DNA from: Vulcanimicrobiota bacterium
GTDB lineage: Bacteria; Vulcanimicrobiota; Vulcanimicrobiia; Vulcanimicrobiales; Vulcanimicrobiaceae
DNA length: 10,909 nucleotides
Reading direction: 5' to 3'
Assembly: GCA_019233165.1 (NCBI GenBank)
Contig: JAFAMS010000195.1
Coordinates: 1-10,909 of the forward strand
Shown here: positions 4,877 to 9,570 of the stretch, one piece after another
Layout of the letters: each line of letters begins with the position of its first letter
How positions within the stretch are numbered: the first letter of the stretch is position 1
Position numbers and translations under genes: made by a program
The notes under the pieces: model-generated
Databases searched by the model: none
What the model was told of the DNA's origin: nothing
The model's input: only the letters and a program-made list of their open reading frames with translations

Positions 4877-5824
4877 TCAGCCCGCTTCGCCCGGCCCCGC
4901 GAGCGCCGCCTCCCGGTCGCGCGCTTCGGCATAGACCTCGCGCAACGAGTCGGCCAGCGCAATTCTGGGAGCCCATCCGGTAGTGCGTTTCAACTTGCTC
5001 GGGTCACCGACGGCGCGCGGGACTTCCGCCGCACGCAGCAAGGACGGATCTTCACGAATCTCGACCGCAACGGCGGCGACGTTCACGAGCCGCCGGAGAA
5101 CCTCTCGCATTTTCACGGCCGAACCGCTGCAGACGTTGTAGATCTCGCCCGACTGACCCCGCTCGGCGAGCGCGACGTACGCGGCGACGACGTCGCGAAC
5201 GTCGAGGAGGTCGCGCTCGGTCTCGATGTTCCCGACGCTCAACACCCGCTCGTGCCCCGAAGCGACGCGCGCCAACCGCTGCGCGAACGCGGGGATTGCA
5301 AAACGCGGATCCTGACCCGGTCCGATGTGATTGAAGGCGCGTCCGATTACTGCATCGAGCCCGTACGACGCGTGCGAGGCCAGGATCAGCGCTTCGGCAG
5401 CCGCTTTGCTCGCGGCGTACGGGTTGGCGGGGCTCGGCGCGAGCGTCTCGCGCAGCGGCATGTCGGTGAGCGGACGGTTTCCGTAGACTTGCGCCGAGCT
5501 CGCGAAGACGAGCCGCGCTTTCGGTGCGGCAACGCGGAGCGCTTCAAGCAAGTACGCCGTCCCGTCAACGTTGACGGCATACGTCTCGAGCGGGCGCTCG
5601 AGCGACGCCGGAACGAAACTTTGCGCTGCGAGATGGAAGACCAGCTCGGGGCGCGCGAGCTCGACGACGGCGCGAACGTTGTCGCGATCGGTGAGCTCGA
5701 GGGGAAGGTGTTCGTCGTCGCCGCGGGAGGGCGCCGCCGAAAAAACGTCGTCGCCGCGCTCTCGCAACGCCGCGAGCAAACGGCGCCCGACGAATCCGGA
5801 TCCCCCGGTGACGAGGACGCGCAC
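4877..5824 (-). CDS. rmd: GDP-4-keto-6-deoxy-D-mannose reductase (GDP-D-rhamnose synthesis)
   Basis: Extended short-chain dehydrogenase that reduces the Gmd product, GDP-4-keto-6-deoxy-D-mannose, to GDP-D-rhamnose with NAD(P)H in the cytoplasm. The 315 residues show the NAD-binding loop TGGSGFVG (6-13), HLAAQSFVPAS (64-74), SSAQVYG (109-115) and the catalytic YAASK (Tyr136, Lys140). AFNHIGPGQ (163-171) and SVGNIETERDLLDVRDVVAAY (196 on) are close to characterised Rmd proteins and separate it from GDP-fucose synthase (WcaG). The start chosen is GTG at 5822-5824, giving VRVLVTGGSGF directly and a normal length; it lies eight bases after the gmd stop. The ATG at 5920 would overlap gmd by about 90 bases with non-conserved sequence. 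No strong ribosome binding site is visible, so coupling to gmd is likely. Confidence 0.9.
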   Translation of the reverse strand: MRVLVTGGSGFVGRRLLAALRERGDDVFSAAPSRGDDEHLPLELTDRDNVRAVVELARPELVFHLAAQSFVPASLERPLETYAVNVDGTAYLLEALRVAAPKARLVFASSAQVYGNRPLTDMPLRETLAPSPANPYAASKAAAEALILASHASYGLDAVIGRAFNHIGPGQDPRFAIPAFAQRLARVASGHERVLSVGNIETERDLLDVRDVVAAYVALAERGQSGEIYNVCSGSAVKMREVLRRLVNVAAVAVEIREDPSLLRAAEVPRAVGDPSKLKRTTGWAPRIALADSLREVYAEARDREAALAGPGEAG

Positions 5825-5832
5825 GCGCTGAA

Positions 5833-7860
5833 TTACGTCGCGACGAGCGGCCGCAGCCGATCGAGATCGGCGCGAACCATGATCTCGACGAGCTCCTCGA
5901 AACCCATCTCCGGTTCCCATCCGAGGATGCGTTTCGCCTTACCCGGATCGCCGACCAACACGTCGACTTCCGCCGGCCGGTAGAACGCGGGGTCGCTCAC
6001 GACGTACCGTTCCCACTCGAGATCGACGCATTCGAATGCCGCCCGAACGAAATCTCGCACCGAGTGCGTCCGTCCCGTTGCGATCACGAAGTCCTCCGGA
6101 CTCGGGTGCTGGAGCATCATCCACATCGCGCGCACGTAGTCGAGCGCATAGCCCCAGTCGCGCTTTGCGTCGAGATTGCCGAGACGAAGCTCGCGGCTGA
6201 TCCCGAGCTTGATGCGCGCCACGCCGTCACTGATCTTACGGGTGACGAACTCCTTTCCCCGACGGGGCGAGTTGTGAATGATGCACTCGCCGATGCCGGC
6301 GTGGAACCGCTGTGAGTCCGTGCTCACATCGTAGAGCCAATCGGCGTAAGCCGGGATAGGGGTCTTGCGCTTGACCTCTGCGGGATCTCGCCGCAGGTGC
6401 GCCCCTATGCCGTTCTCTTTAGGCGATCGCAGATTGATCGAATAAAAAGGTCCTGGCCGCTCCGGCGGTCCCACATCGAGATTAAGAATACACTGTTGCT
6501 TCAACGCGACCGTTGCGAGCCACCACAAGCCCATCGCAAGCGTCGGCGAATTGGTTTTGAAATTCTTGTAACGATACTTCGACTTCGGTGCAGACTTCAA
6601 CCCGTCCGTGGCGTGATAACCCTCAAGGAAGGCGCGCCACGAACCCTCGTCGCTGTTCAAGACGACCTTAGGAATGCGCTTTCGTCCGTCGGTGGTATAG
6701 CATTCGTCGCGCAACCATTCCAAGTACCGTGGAGCATCGTTGAGCGCAAGCGCGCCCACCGTTCTGCCCGGAACGAATCCTGAGGACGTTGCCGTGTATT
6801 TCGTCGTCCCGCATGTGACGCGCTGCCAAGCATCGGAAAAAAAAGTGCGAAGCCGCGCGTCGCTGTTCGTAAACTTGCCATGAACGCCACTTTGGCCGCT
6901 GTGGCTATAGGCGCTGCCATCACCGACAAAAGCGCCTAAGAGCCATGCCTCATCGAGGGTCAGCGACGTCAGGCTCGGCGCTTCCGGCAGTTGAGCGCGC
7001 GCCACGCGGTCGCCGACACTGACTCCCCGGTTCGGGACCTGGCCGTTCTCCGTAAAGATGACGTGGTCGCCGGTCGTCGTGACCGTCCCGCAGCGCGCCT
7101 CGAGCCGTGCAACCTCTTTGTCCTCGAAGTTGCGGCGTACGCGATAGGCCGTGCCGCCGCGAACGCGGGTGAAATCTTCTCCGTCCCAGATCTCGAGGTC
7201 TTGTATCTCGAAACGTTGGTAGGTCGGTCCCTTCTCGCGGATGTGCAAGAGGTCGCCGATCGGCAGCACGTCGATCAGTCCGTTCCTGCGAACGATCACG
7301 GGCGTGCTGGCCGGGACCGACTCGTGGTTGAAACAGATGCCGCTCACGGCGAAAATGTCGTAGCTCTCGCGATAGTTCACGGTAATATAGTGCCCGTACA
7401 CCTTCGCCACGCCGTAGGGGCTGCGGGGATAGAACGGCGTCTTCTCGTTTTGCGGCGACTCGAGTACCTTGCCGAACATCTCGGAGCTCGAGGCCTGATA
7501 GAACTTGATGCGCGGATCGACGGCGCGAACCGCCTCGAGGACGCGCGTGACGCCGAGCGCGGTGAATTCGCCGGTCAGCACGGGCTGCGTCCACGAGGTG
7601 GGAACGAACGACTGCGCGGCGAGGTTGTAGATCTCGTCCGGCTTGACCGCAGCGACGATTGCGGTGATCGAGCTTTGGTCGAGCAAGTCGCCCGAGACGA
7701 TCTCGACGTTATCGACGATGTGCTCGATCCGCTCGTGGACGTCGGTGCTCGAGCGGCGGGTCATTCCGACGACGCGATATCCTTTTTCGAGCAAAAACTC
7801 GGCCAGGTACGATCCGTCCTGGCCGGTGATCCCCGTAATGAGCACTTTTTTTTGCGGCAT
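5833..7860 (-). CDS. gmd: GDP-mannose 4,6-dehydratase precursor containing an intein
   Basis: Converts GDP-D-mannose to GDP-4-keto-6-deoxy-D-mannose, the first step toward GDP-D-rhamnose (with rmd next door) or GDP-fucose. The 675-residue precursor is an N-extein (1-180), an intein (181-530) and a C-extein (531-675). The spliced enzyme would be 325 residues, the usual length for bacterial Gmd. The N-extein has the NADP loop GITGQDG, the AAQSFVPTSW motif, SSSEMFG with Glu127, and YGVAK (Tyr149, Lys153). The C-extein starts SPRRGKEFVTRKI and includes LGNLDAKRDWGYALDYV and FYRPAEVDVLVGDPGKAK. Joined, the exteins restore the conserved FNHESPRRG. The ATG at 7858-7860 lies one base after the PilZ TAA and gives MPQKKVLITGITGQDG. 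The upstream in-frame extension to 7932 has no family resemblance. Both exteins appear intact, so the enzyme should be active only after splicing. Confidence 0.96.
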   Translation of the reverse strand: MPQKKVLITGITGQDGSYLAEFLLEKGYRVVGMTRRSSTDVHERIEHIVDNVEIVSGDLLDQSSITAIVAAVKPDEIYNLAAQSFVPTSWTQPVLTGEFTALGVTRVLEAVRAVDPRIKFYQASSSEMFGKVLESPQNEKTPFYPRSPYGVAKVYGHYITVNYRESYDIFAVSGICFNHESVPASTPVIVRRNGLIDVLPIGDLLHIREKGPTYQRFEIQDLEIWDGEDFTRVRGGTAYRVRRNFEDKEVARLEARCGTVTTTGDHVIFTENGQVPNRGVSVGDRVARAQLPEAPSLTSLTLDEAWLLGAFVGDGSAYSHSGQSGVHGKFTNSDARLRTFFSDAWQRVTCGTTKYTATSSGFVPGRTVGALALNDAPRYLEWLRDECYTTDGRKRIPKVVLNSDEGSWRAFLEGYHATDGLKSAPKSKYRYKNFKTNSPTLAMGLWWLATVALKQQCILNLDVGPPERPGPFYSINLRSPKENGIGAHLRRDPAEVKRKTPIPAYADWLYDVSTDSQRFHAGIGECIIHNSPRRGKEFVTRKISDGVARIKLGISRELRLGNLDAKRDWGYALDYVRAMWMMLQHPSPEDFVIATGRTHSVRDFVRAAFECVDLEWERYVVSDPAFYRPAEVDVLVGDPGKAKRILGWEPEMGFEELVEIMVRADLDRLRPLVAT
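6451..7023 (-). other. LAGLIDADG endonuclease domain of the gmd intein
   Basis: Approximate span, intein residues 100-290. The first LAGLIDADG motif is WLLGAFVGDGS (126-136) with acidic Asp134. The second is AFLEGYHATDG (230-240) with Asp239. Between them is KRIPKVVLNS, a segment usual just before the second motif, and after it KNFKTNSPTLAMGL, which resembles the usual strand-helix following it. Both metal-binding Asp residues are kept, so cleavage activity is plausible. The target would be the uninterrupted gmd sequence coding for FNHESPRRG. Domain borders are estimated. Confidence 0.85.
6837..6844. repeat. Eight-base A/T homopolymer inside the intein endonuclease
   Basis: A8 on plus, T8 on the coding strand, covering codons for TFFS between the two LAGLIDADG motifs. 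Such a run is rare in this GC-rich window. A one-base slip here would truncate the intein and the whole Gmd precursor. Confidence 0.8.
7846..7853. repeat. Eight-base A tract at codons 3-5 of gmd
   Basis: On the coding strand the gene opens ATG CCG CAA AAA AAA GTG, so eight A residues follow the sixth base after the ATG start. A length change would frameshift gmd at once. It could be a slippage-prone on/off site, or simply an A-rich, unstructured start that helps initiation where no good Shine-Dalgarno is present. Confidence 0.8.
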
Positions 7861-7861
7861 C

Positions 7862-8533
7862 TTAATTGAGGATGAGTACGTTCTCGCCGTTTTCGTCGAA
7901 GACGAAACGCGTCTCGTACATCTCGTCTCCATCGTTGTCGACGACTTTCGACTGGATCGTCAGACGGTGCATCGGCTTCCCTTCGTGCCGGACCAAACCG
8001 GAATAGAAATACTGGACGAGCGGCGTGGCCTTCTCGTCCAGAGCCGCGAGACGATGGCGCTCGACGAGCATTTGCAGGAGCCGGTTCTGCAGCTCGAGCG
8101 GGAGCAGGCGCGAAGTGTCGTCTTCGCTCATCCGAACGGCGACGAGCTCTTCCTGCGCCTTGTTCGACTCGGCGACGGTCTTGCCCGTCGTGTAGCGGAT
8201 CACGGCGTCCCAATCGTCGGCCGGGATCCCCGAGTATCGCAGGCCGTACCGAAAGACGGTCTTGCCTTGATGCGTGACGTTGTCTTGCCAGACGGTCTTC
8301 ACGCGCATGCGGACCGTCCGCTGCTCGAGCGTCGCCCGCACGTCGAACTCCGCCTTGTCGACCGCTTCCTGCGTGAGGATGCACATCCCACCGCCGCTGA
8401 TGTCGAGCCCGATCGCGGGACGCTGCGACTTGCCGTCGAGCGTGTACGTGGCGCGATAGGGCTTGCGCTTACGAGGGAACTTGCGCCGGTTTACTTCTTT
8501 GCCGGTAAACCACGCCAAGAGCTCGGGGAGCAT
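7862..8533 (-). CDS. PilZ-domain protein, predicted c-di-GMP receptor
   Basis: Cytoplasmic protein of 223 residues predicted to bind cyclic di-GMP. The N-terminal PilZ domain (about 15-115) has both binding motifs: RRKFPR with the RxxxR pair Arg17 and Arg21, and LDISGGG with the DxSxxG pattern (Asp44, Ser46, Gly49). The C-terminal half (about 120-223) is a charged helical stretch followed by a strand-like segment ending DENGENVLILN; I do not recognise it as a named domain. The ATG at 8531-8533 gives MLPELLAWFTGKEVNRRKFPRKRK. The frame stays open to 8671, but that part overlaps the SIS gene and is Arg-rich shadow sequence. Its TAA is one base from the gmd ATG. This suggests it is co-expressed with, and may control, GDP-rhamnose use or a glycan export machine. 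No effector partner is visible. Confidence 0.92.
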   Translation of the reverse strand: MLPELLAWFTGKEVNRRKFPRKRKPYRATYTLDGKSQRPAIGLDISGGGMCILTQEAVDKAEFDVRATLEQRTVRMRVKTVWQDNVTHQGKTVFRYGLRYSGIPADDWDAVIRYTTGKTVAESNKAQEELVAVRMSEDDTSRLLPLELQNRLLQMLVERHRLAALDEKATPLVQYFYSGLVRHEGKPMHRLTIQSKVVDNDGDEMYETRFVFDENGENVLILN

Positions 8534-8574
8534 TAAGCGGCGCTTTGACGGCTCGGGGCGAGGCCCTGCGCACG
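8534..8574 (-). other. 41-base intergenic gap between the SIS and PilZ genes
   Basis: The only gap over ten bases in the window. On the minus strand it has an imperfect CTCG/CGAG inverted repeat without a U-tract and no clear Shine-Dalgarno before the PilZ ATG. No convincing -35/-10 promoter is seen, but a separate transcription start for the PilZ-gmd-rmd group could lie here or inside the SIS gene. Confidence 0.35.
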
Positions 8575-9570
8575 CTACGCAAGGAACTTCGAGAGGCCGC
8601 GTGGTGCGTCGCCGTCGACGTGCGCGGCACGGCCCGCGAAGAGCGCGAGGCTCTGGCCGGTCACGAGCCATCCCAGCGTGTTGAAAGCCTCGCCGGTCGA
8701 GGGCCCGAGCCGGGGGATCTCACCGAGCGGCGCTCCGACGACGTAGCGGAGCGCGCCCGCGCGTTCCGCCTCCAGCATCGGCCGCGCGACGATCTCACGC
8801 GAGCTCTCGTCCAAGATTCCGATCAGCGCGCACGACGAATCGAGCATCGCCGAGCTCCCGTGCCGGAACTCGCCGGCGGCGAACCCCTCGGCGTGAACGT
8901 AGCTCGCTTCTTTCATTTTGAGCGCGAGCTCGAACGCGATCGGGACGCTGTAGCCGGCGCCGACGATCGCGACCGCCCTCCGGTATGCGATGCGGAGCGC
9001 CGCCGCCGACGCTTCCTGCCACCCTTCACCGCCCAGCCATCGCTCGACGTCGTCGGCCGTCTCGCGCAACGTCGCCGCCGTTCGGTTTCGGTGTCCCGCG
9101 ATCAGCGCCGCGGCCCACAACAGGATCGCGACCGTCGCGGTTACGCTCTTCGTCGCCGGAACGGCGCGCTCGGGGCCGGCGTCGAGCGCGATCGAACGAT
9201 CGGCGCGTGCCGCGAGCGGCGAGTCGGGCGCGTTCGTGATCGCGATCGTTTTCCGCGGCGCGAGCAGATCGAGGGCGGCGAGGACGTCTCCCGAGCGCCC
9301 GCTTTGGGAGAGCGCGACGACGCACGCTTCGCGATACGCTTCGCGGTCGAAGCGGGTCTCGGTCGCCGCGAGCGCGCTCGCCCAAATCCCGCGCCTGCGC
9401 AGCGCGAGCGCGCCGAGCTGCCCGGCGAACAGGGAGCTCCCGCTTCCGACGAAGCAGACCTGGCGCGTTCCAATCGCGCGTGCGAGCTCGTCGGCCTTCG
9501 CCGAGGCCGCCAGCCGCCGCCACACCTCGGGCTGCTCGCGAATTTCCGCTTCGAAGCGCGCGCCGAGCAT
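8575..9570 (-). CDS. Double-SIS sugar-phosphate isomerase/deaminase (GlmS isomerase-like, NagB-II type)
   Basis: Protein of 331 residues with two SIS domains and no glutaminase domain, matching the C-terminal isomerase half of GlmS. SIS 1 (about 25-155) has GSGSSLFAG, ALSQSGRSGDVLAAL (86-100) and AGPERAVPATKSVT (131-144). SIS 2 (about 190-320) has VGAGYSVPIAFELALKMKEASY and HAEGFAAGEFRHG. Equivalents of the GlmS isomerase residues are present: Glu221 (MKE), His237 (FRHG) and Lys328 near the C-terminus (PRGLSK). Stand-alone proteins of this build include the NagB-II glucosamine-6-phosphate deaminases and AgaS-like enzymes. The best guess is interconversion of glucosamine-6-phosphate and fructose-6-phosphate with ammonia, in amino-sugar catabolism or cell-wall recycling. 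The ATG at 9568-9570 overlaps the PBP4-like TGA by one base. The exact substrate is not decidable here. Confidence 0.9.
   Translation of the reverse strand: MLGARFEAEIREQPEVWRRLAASAKADELARAIGTRQVCFVGSGSSLFAGQLGALALRRRGIWASALAATETRFDREAYREACVVALSQSGRSGDVLAALDLLAPRKTIAITNAPDSPLAARADRSIALDAGPERAVPATKSVTATVAILLWAAALIAGHRNRTAATLRETADDVERWLGGEGWQEASAAALRIAYRRAVAIVGAGYSVPIAFELALKMKEASYVHAEGFAAGEFRHGSSAMLDSSCALIGILDESSREIVARPMLEAERAGALRYVVGAPLGEIPRLGPSTGEAFNTLGWLVTGQSLALFAGRAAHVDGDAPRGLSKFLA

Follow-up and report, generated by a model that had tools for sequence, protein, structure and literature searches.

Type II inteins in the gmd gene of Thermosynechococcus were reported in 2022 (PMC9403480), and an intein in GDP-mannose 4,6-dehydratase (Gmd) is therefore, as far as the consulted section of that paper goes, a kind of element already known in print. 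The present analysis concerns such an intein in Vulcanimicrobiota bacterium contig JAFAMS010000195.1 (assembly GCA_019233165.1; all 10,909 nucleotides of this stretch are referred to as the window), where it interrupts Gmd at the junction FNHE/SPRRG. The Thermosynechococcus inteins resemble it in bearing an endonuclease and in occupying the same host gene; they differ in having a cyanobacterial host and, in the same section, are known by description, without site or sequence. The original prediction, made from the DNA letters of the window, was aware of no earlier intein in Gmd and regarded the insertion site as new or little-known. The former view is overtaken by the 2022 report. The latter holds in so far as the site is absent from that section of PMC9403480, and fails in so far as gmd inteins are in print and hundreds of copies are present in databases, nearly all labelled simply Gmd or unnamed. 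No further Gmd intein was found in other literature on inteins together with Gmd or GDP-mannose, in which subscription journals are thinly covered; PMC11467894, in the part consulted, names Gmd and, in a reference, inteins, with no link between them. Within the same coverage, neither the spread over phyla and into archaeal bins, nor the common insertion point, nor the signature at that point, all described below, was found in print.

The gmd gene is located at 5833..7860 of the minus strand, within a single open frame of 699 amino acids (7932..5833) readable from 7932. The likely translation start is ATG 7858-7860, which fits the N-terminus of Gmd. The frame is recognised as Gmd with the insert included (TIGR01472, 424 bits, cut-off 415), and the match to Pfam GDP_Man_Dehyd (431.5 bits) is split over 2 stretches. 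The insert comprises frame residues 205-554 (nt 7320..6271, minus strand), i.e. 350 in-frame residues from Ser1 to His349 Asn350. It is preceded by an N-extein of 180 residues ending in ...ICFNHE (7321..7860, minus strand) and followed by a C-extein of 145 residues and a stop, beginning with SPRRGKEF (5833..6270, minus strand). Removal of the insert from the frame starting at ATG 7860 leaves a 325-residue Gmd that reads FNHESPRRG; precise in-frame insertion, with the conserved host protein restored on removal, is characteristic of class 1 inteins. The coordinates 6271..7320, the motifs and the lengths of insert and host given by the original prediction turned out to be correct to the base. The alignment of the exteins with Gmd structures, which it had proposed as a check, also agrees: with the best two PDB chains, 1rpn (the closest solved chain to the host Gmd) and 2z1m, the alignment reaches FNHES and restarts at HESP. 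Residues N202, H203, E204 and S555-G559 are invariant across 62 sequences, every one of them an intein carrier. From structural work on Gmd, the interrupted loop is situated at the substrate and cofactor site. Foreign origin of the intein is not clearly marked by composition (GC 60.2% vs 61.0% in the extein; GC at third codon positions 72.0 vs 84.4 and 79.5).

The splicing motifs are all found in the insert, residue conservation being counted over 121 intein sequences. The stretch at 7282..7320 (minus strand, as are all motifs below), which we take to be block A, contains Ser1 and SVPASTPVIVRRN; residue 1 is Ser in 111/121 and Cys in 10/121. Block B (7063..7074) carries the TxxH motif as TGDH at residues 83-86, with T and H conserved in 121/121. 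The stretch WLYDVSTDSQRFHAGIGECIIHN (6271..6339), taken by us as blocks F and G, ends with H349 and N350, again present in 121/121. Two LAGLIDADG motifs with a catalytic Asp, as expected of a homing endonuclease, are seen as LLGAFVGDGS (6913..6942; Asp134, D in 121/121) and FLEGYHATDG (6601..6630; Asp239, D in 120/121). Ser/Cys1, TxxH, C-terminal His-Asn and Cys/Ser/Thr+1 are thus all in place, and the splicing residues are kept in 296/296 proteins caught by pattern. The confident AlphaFold model of the insert matches solved inteins in the PDB and has the Hint fold. Its likeness to the VMA inteins TliVMA (7qsu) and PhoVMA (7qst) and to intein endonuclease II (2cw7) extends over the whole length, i.e. 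over the splicing domain with the inserted LAGLIDADG endonuclease, at 14-23% identity by two aligners; these inteins differ in host protein and site. By sequence, the insert gave only weak PDB matches, to 2cw7 (E 0.31) and a sorting nexin (E 1.9). A model of the whole precursor (mean predicted local distance difference test, pLDDT, 85.7; predicted template modelling score, pTM, 0.58; both junction segments <50) was used for no claim.

Several observations speak against the intein assignment. The curated intein profiles do not recognise the insert (no PF14890 match; TIGR01445 15.9 bits, cut-off 24.5), no intein model matched in 16/16 family members at E 0.01, and precomputed Pfam annotation flags PF14890 for 6/312 listed hits, 3 of which have a second intein. 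In addition, one of the 121 sequences is without Asp239, and Cys1 and Ser1 are both used. PF14528 scores just under its cut-off on the window's insert (21.6 bits, cut-off 22.5) and is matched by 12/16 members at E 0.01. The profile check suggested beforehand was negative for the curated intein profiles; the Hint fold is seen in the AlphaFold model. The assignment nevertheless stands, because a profile score aids recognition, and it is the motifs and the fold that define an intein. An intein at FNHE/SPRRG of Gmd, as originally predicted, is strongly supported by the motifs, the family-wide conservation and the fold. With high confidence, the insert is predicted to be a class 1 cis-splicing intein of full length that includes a LAGLIDADG homing endonuclease; its insertion site is named here Gmd-a.

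The site is shared by a large family. Altogether 313 proteins were read, the window's own and 312 among the matches listed, all selected by likeness to Gmd inteins. Both junctions lie at the FNHE/SPRRG point in 310/313, which excludes chance; the other three are short (407, 492 and 528 aa), two having the C-terminal junction only and one the N-terminal only. Because of the selection by likeness, the data demonstrate a shared site and not a restriction of the relatives to Gmd. The intein length over all proteins read is 333-365, and mean intein identity is 41% between the 114 sequences nearest to the window and 104 others (the two sets are defined by search list and are not taxonomic). The inteins from Synechocystis salina (P0185), an Anaerolineae bin (P0213) and a Thermoplasmata bin (L146) have the same insertion point and motifs and differ from the window's intein in having Cys1 instead of Ser1. 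Thus a large, mostly unannotated intein group, rarely picked up by Pfam's standard model for inteins, occupies one site of a surface-sugar enzyme in bacteria and archaeal bins. A second intein was seen by eye in 3/313 proteins (~1,100 residues), at QASS/SEMFG in P0157 and P0158 and at NLGAQ/SHVKV in P0227; Gmd is thus host to inteins at more than one site.

Among 149 genomes of the host phylum, 22 match the insert; in 19 of them the in-frame copy is complete or almost so, and the other 3 give weak local matches. All 19 carriers give FNHESPRRG with the insert left out, with Ser as residue 1 in 18 and Cys in one. They are confined to two families, f1 and f3, and uninterrupted Gmd above the cut-off is found in 75 genomes of families f1-f3. 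For 18/19 carrier genomes no uninterrupted Gmd above the cut-off is listed, several of the assemblies being incomplete (the window's own is 80%). The sole carrier with both states, G117, has an intein-bearing and an uninterrupted gmd (contigs 23 and 186; L050 and L020).

The gene would be translated from ATG 7860 as a 675-residue precursor, from which the intein would excise itself and join NHE to SPRRG, giving the 325-residue Gmd. Such splicing begins with an acyl shift at Ser1, after which the chain is transferred to Ser+1, Asn350 cyclises and a final shift follows. The unspliced precursor is expected to be inactive because the cut falls in a strongly conserved Gmd loop, and for the same expected inactivity splicing would probably be needed for the GDP-sugar pathway in carriers without a second Gmd. 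That surface-glycan synthesis may stand behind protein splicing, as originally suggested, is a fair inference, since 18/19 carriers list no uninterrupted Gmd. It is conceivable, the insert being known from sequence alone, that the intein is decayed or splicing-dead and that the gene gives an inactive precursor only. This is very improbable in view of the frame open across 699 codons, the splicing residues intact in 296/296 proteins, a nonsynonymous rate (dN) below the synonymous one (dS) in the 12 pairs shown, and the same lack of a listed uninterrupted Gmd in 18/19 carriers. A conditional switch, by which slow, redox- or temperature-dependent splicing controls the supply of GDP-deoxyhexose, is also unlikely, if slightly less so. 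Conditional splicing occurs in other inteins, the interrupted loop is conserved, most carriers have the enzyme in a single copy, and dN/dS is low in the splicing part; however, the patchy presence (75 uninterrupted genes vs 19 occupied in f1-f3) and the use of either Cys1 or Ser1 suggest a selfish element and not a kept regulator. Splicing could be put to the test in Vulcanimicrobium alpinum, a carrier that is in culture.

In a scan of genome contigs, 12 loci were found. Ten are titled Eremiobacterota or WPS-2 (one with only a C-terminal piece), one is titled Proteobacteria and one Thermoplasmata archaeon. On the Thermoplasmata contig, too, the interrupted gene is Gmd and the insertion point is the same. 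In 400 genomes drawn from the class of this archaeal carrier, 2 full-length copies (that one and one 58% alike) and 20 weak matches were found; a further Thermoplasmata-named entry, P0125, differs in sequence from both archaeal copies. Names that the sources give to further carriers at the site are Synechocystis salina, Oscillatoria, Oscillatoriaceae, Kamptonema, Sericytochromatia, Anaerolineae, Thermoflexales, Chloroflexaceae, Anaeromyxobacteraceae, Deltaproteobacteria, Methylomirabilales, Pyrinomonadaceae and a partial Anammoxibacter protein. By our own placement of these names in phyla, the carriers represent six bacterial phyla including Vulcanimicrobiota (the uncertain Deltaproteobacteria and Anammoxibacter left aside), plus Thermoplasmata. 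Most carriers are metagenome bins, and single taxon assignments may be wrong. Carriers named as strain or species are Synechocystis salina LEGE 06155 and V. alpinum; the insert of genome G118 is found within the V. alpinum protein P0029. The word intein is absent from the consulted text of the V. alpinum isolate paper (PMC9758169), where conditions for growing strain WC8-2 are given.

In viral contigs, 132 stretches encode a relative of Gmd. The matches in the best 80 of 132 span ~0.8-1.2 kb of DNA, too short for the 1 kb insert; 71 of the best 80 were read and 71/71 are uninterrupted. Carriage of the Gmd intein by phages is thus not indicated in the viral-contig collection, the phage and plasmid record collections not being searched. 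A scan with the insert only gave one locus (L148:2069-5698), a DNA polymerase with an intein before TDS that is 25% identical to the Gmd intein.

The endonuclease is expected to cut empty gmd alleles at NHE/SP, the intein being copied in by repair, and the intein would thus persist through homing, possibly with present-day mobility. The sporadic distribution and the site signature described below are indirect signs of such cutting. The Gmd tree, in which distant outgroups, two archaeal genes and the +2 column were included, interleaves carriers and non-carriers, which cluster to no greater degree than under shuffled labels (18 changes vs a shuffled-label mean of 18.9). The intein and extein alignments of the 19 carriers reject each other's best tree in the approximately unbiased (AU) test (p 6.7e-12 and 5.9e-4). 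Two circumstances weaken this conflict: the test included the two best trees only, which favours rejection, and the f1/f3 split is common to both trees except for L042 (weakly placed in the intein tree), with f3 carriers staying together, so that the history is partly vertical or includes whole-gene transfer. Over 218 sequences intein and extein identities correlate (Pearson 0.73); among the most extreme pairs, P0180 and P0194 share 72% in the intein and 50% in the extein, and P0030 and P0209 share 77% in the extein and 38% in the intein. The closest pair shows dN/dS values of ~0.08 for the endonuclease part, which is under purifying selection, and ~0.05 for the splicing part. Patchy spread, tree conflict and low dN/dS together give a picture of an endonuclease that would be kept active by homing.

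In the window, the +1/+2 codons are TCG CCC (Ser Pro; 6265..6270, minus strand), in agreement with a signature, TCN CCN, that separates occupied from empty genes. The final empty-gene set of f1-f3 consists of 72/75 genes read by pattern together with L022 and L185, in which +1 is altered; L211 is unread. TCN CCN is present in 19/19 occupied and 21/72 empty genes (Fisher p 7e-9), or in 21/74 empty ones with the two altered genes included. In f3 alone the counts are 6/6 occupied vs 0/7 empty (p 6e-4), and in f1 and f2 together 13/13 vs 21/65 (p 4e-6). The two archaeal carriers read have TCT CCC and TCC CCC. When all columns of the gene were scanned with the first 55 empty genes (of 59 fetched), Pro+2 had the strongest association with the intein of 322 residue columns (p 4.9e-6; runner-up 1.7e-3). 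Of 966 nucleotide columns the four with the strongest association were +4, +5, +1 and +2 (p 2e-5 to 4e-4; fifth 1.1e-3), and among 13 Ser columns the codon class at +1 ranked first (p 4e-4; second 0.063). The association ends at +5, with none from -12 to -1 or from +6 to +17. In a tree-aware test with +1/+2 masked, the joint TCNCCN gave 9 independent pairs, ~6.7 in the same direction and 0 opposite (p 0.016, range 0.016-0.031); an earlier tree, which included far outgroups, archaeal genes and the +2 column, gave 13 pairs for Pro+2 only (median p 0.004). The Ser-codon part is synonymous and therefore cannot be explained by protein splicing; it seems to be pointing to DNA-level homing specificity.

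A target-site reading of this signature has to be weighed against the following. The Fisher values ignore relatedness; on supported branches, the Ser codon alone and Pro+2 alone each fall short of significance (median p 0.0625); weak associations exist near the junction at -13 (p 0.0093), -23 (0.042) and +18 (0.03), and farther off at +102 (p 0.0011) and +122 (0.0023). TCNCCN also occurs in Gmd genes of other origin, in 34/71 from viral contigs and 6/10 from other classes of the phylum. Since these genes vary at the site too, the variation there may be drift, and no selection by the intein is required. Accordingly, the signature, though not the intein itself, may result from hitch-hiking, in which the intein brings a short stretch of flanking DNA with it and empty genes are free to drift; we give this a chance slightly short of even. 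A copied flank would be expected to extend further than +5, where the association stops; since the adjacent non-wobble bases hardly vary among occupied or empty genes, the copied tract may still be a short one. The point to be explained is that zero occupied genes depart from TCN CCN, for which specificity of the endonuclease for non-wobble bases would be our preferred account. As a reading that is less likely than not, it is proposed that in Vulcanimicrobiota the Gmd-a endonuclease reads the non-wobble NHE/SP bases and that intein-free lineages persisted via site mutation off TCN-CCN. The escape routes would be the silent change of Ser TCN to AGY, replacement of the otherwise common Pro+2 (by E, A, S, Q, D, T, K or G), and replacement of Ser+1 by Ala or Gly, the last in two genomes. 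Were this so, a selfish element would have shaped the sequence of a conserved loop, and the intein-free lineages would be a case, in nature, of a metabolic-enzyme gene evading a drive that acts at the protein level. Occupied genes, empty genes with TCN-CCN and empty genes with an altered site form a series that, with a host gene single-copy in most carriers and a carrier in culture, allows homing specificity to be tested against codon degeneracy, and likewise the question of natural escape from homing through mutated sites.

Two observations on single empty genes belong here. L022 and L185 have Ala or Gly for Ser+1 of NHES, which is Ser in the 72 other empty genes; these residues should also forbid splicing there. 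The uninterrupted gmd of G117 has AGC AGC (Ser Ser) at the site, not TCN CCN.

Downstream of gmd, an extended short-chain dehydrogenase/reductase (SDR) gene is found at 4877..5920 (minus strand; PF16363 206 bits, Epimerase 191 bits), its true start being probably internal. Among the 25 NCBIfam models listed, none was above its cut-off for this gene; it probably encodes a reductase or epimerase for the Gmd product, which would fit a GDP-deoxyhexose pathway. Directly upstream of gmd, a PilZ-domain gene occupies 7862-8671 of the same strand and ends 1 nt before the likely gmd start. Elsewhere in the same genome, a general intein profile search found only an intein in DnaB, the replicative helicase (G000 contig 160, L001:1294-2568, minus strand), whose N-terminal part is lost at the contig end. 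By eye, it has LAGLIDADG-like motifs too; it differs from the Gmd intein in its helicase host and in being recognised by PF14890 (36.5 bits, cut-off 35.8).
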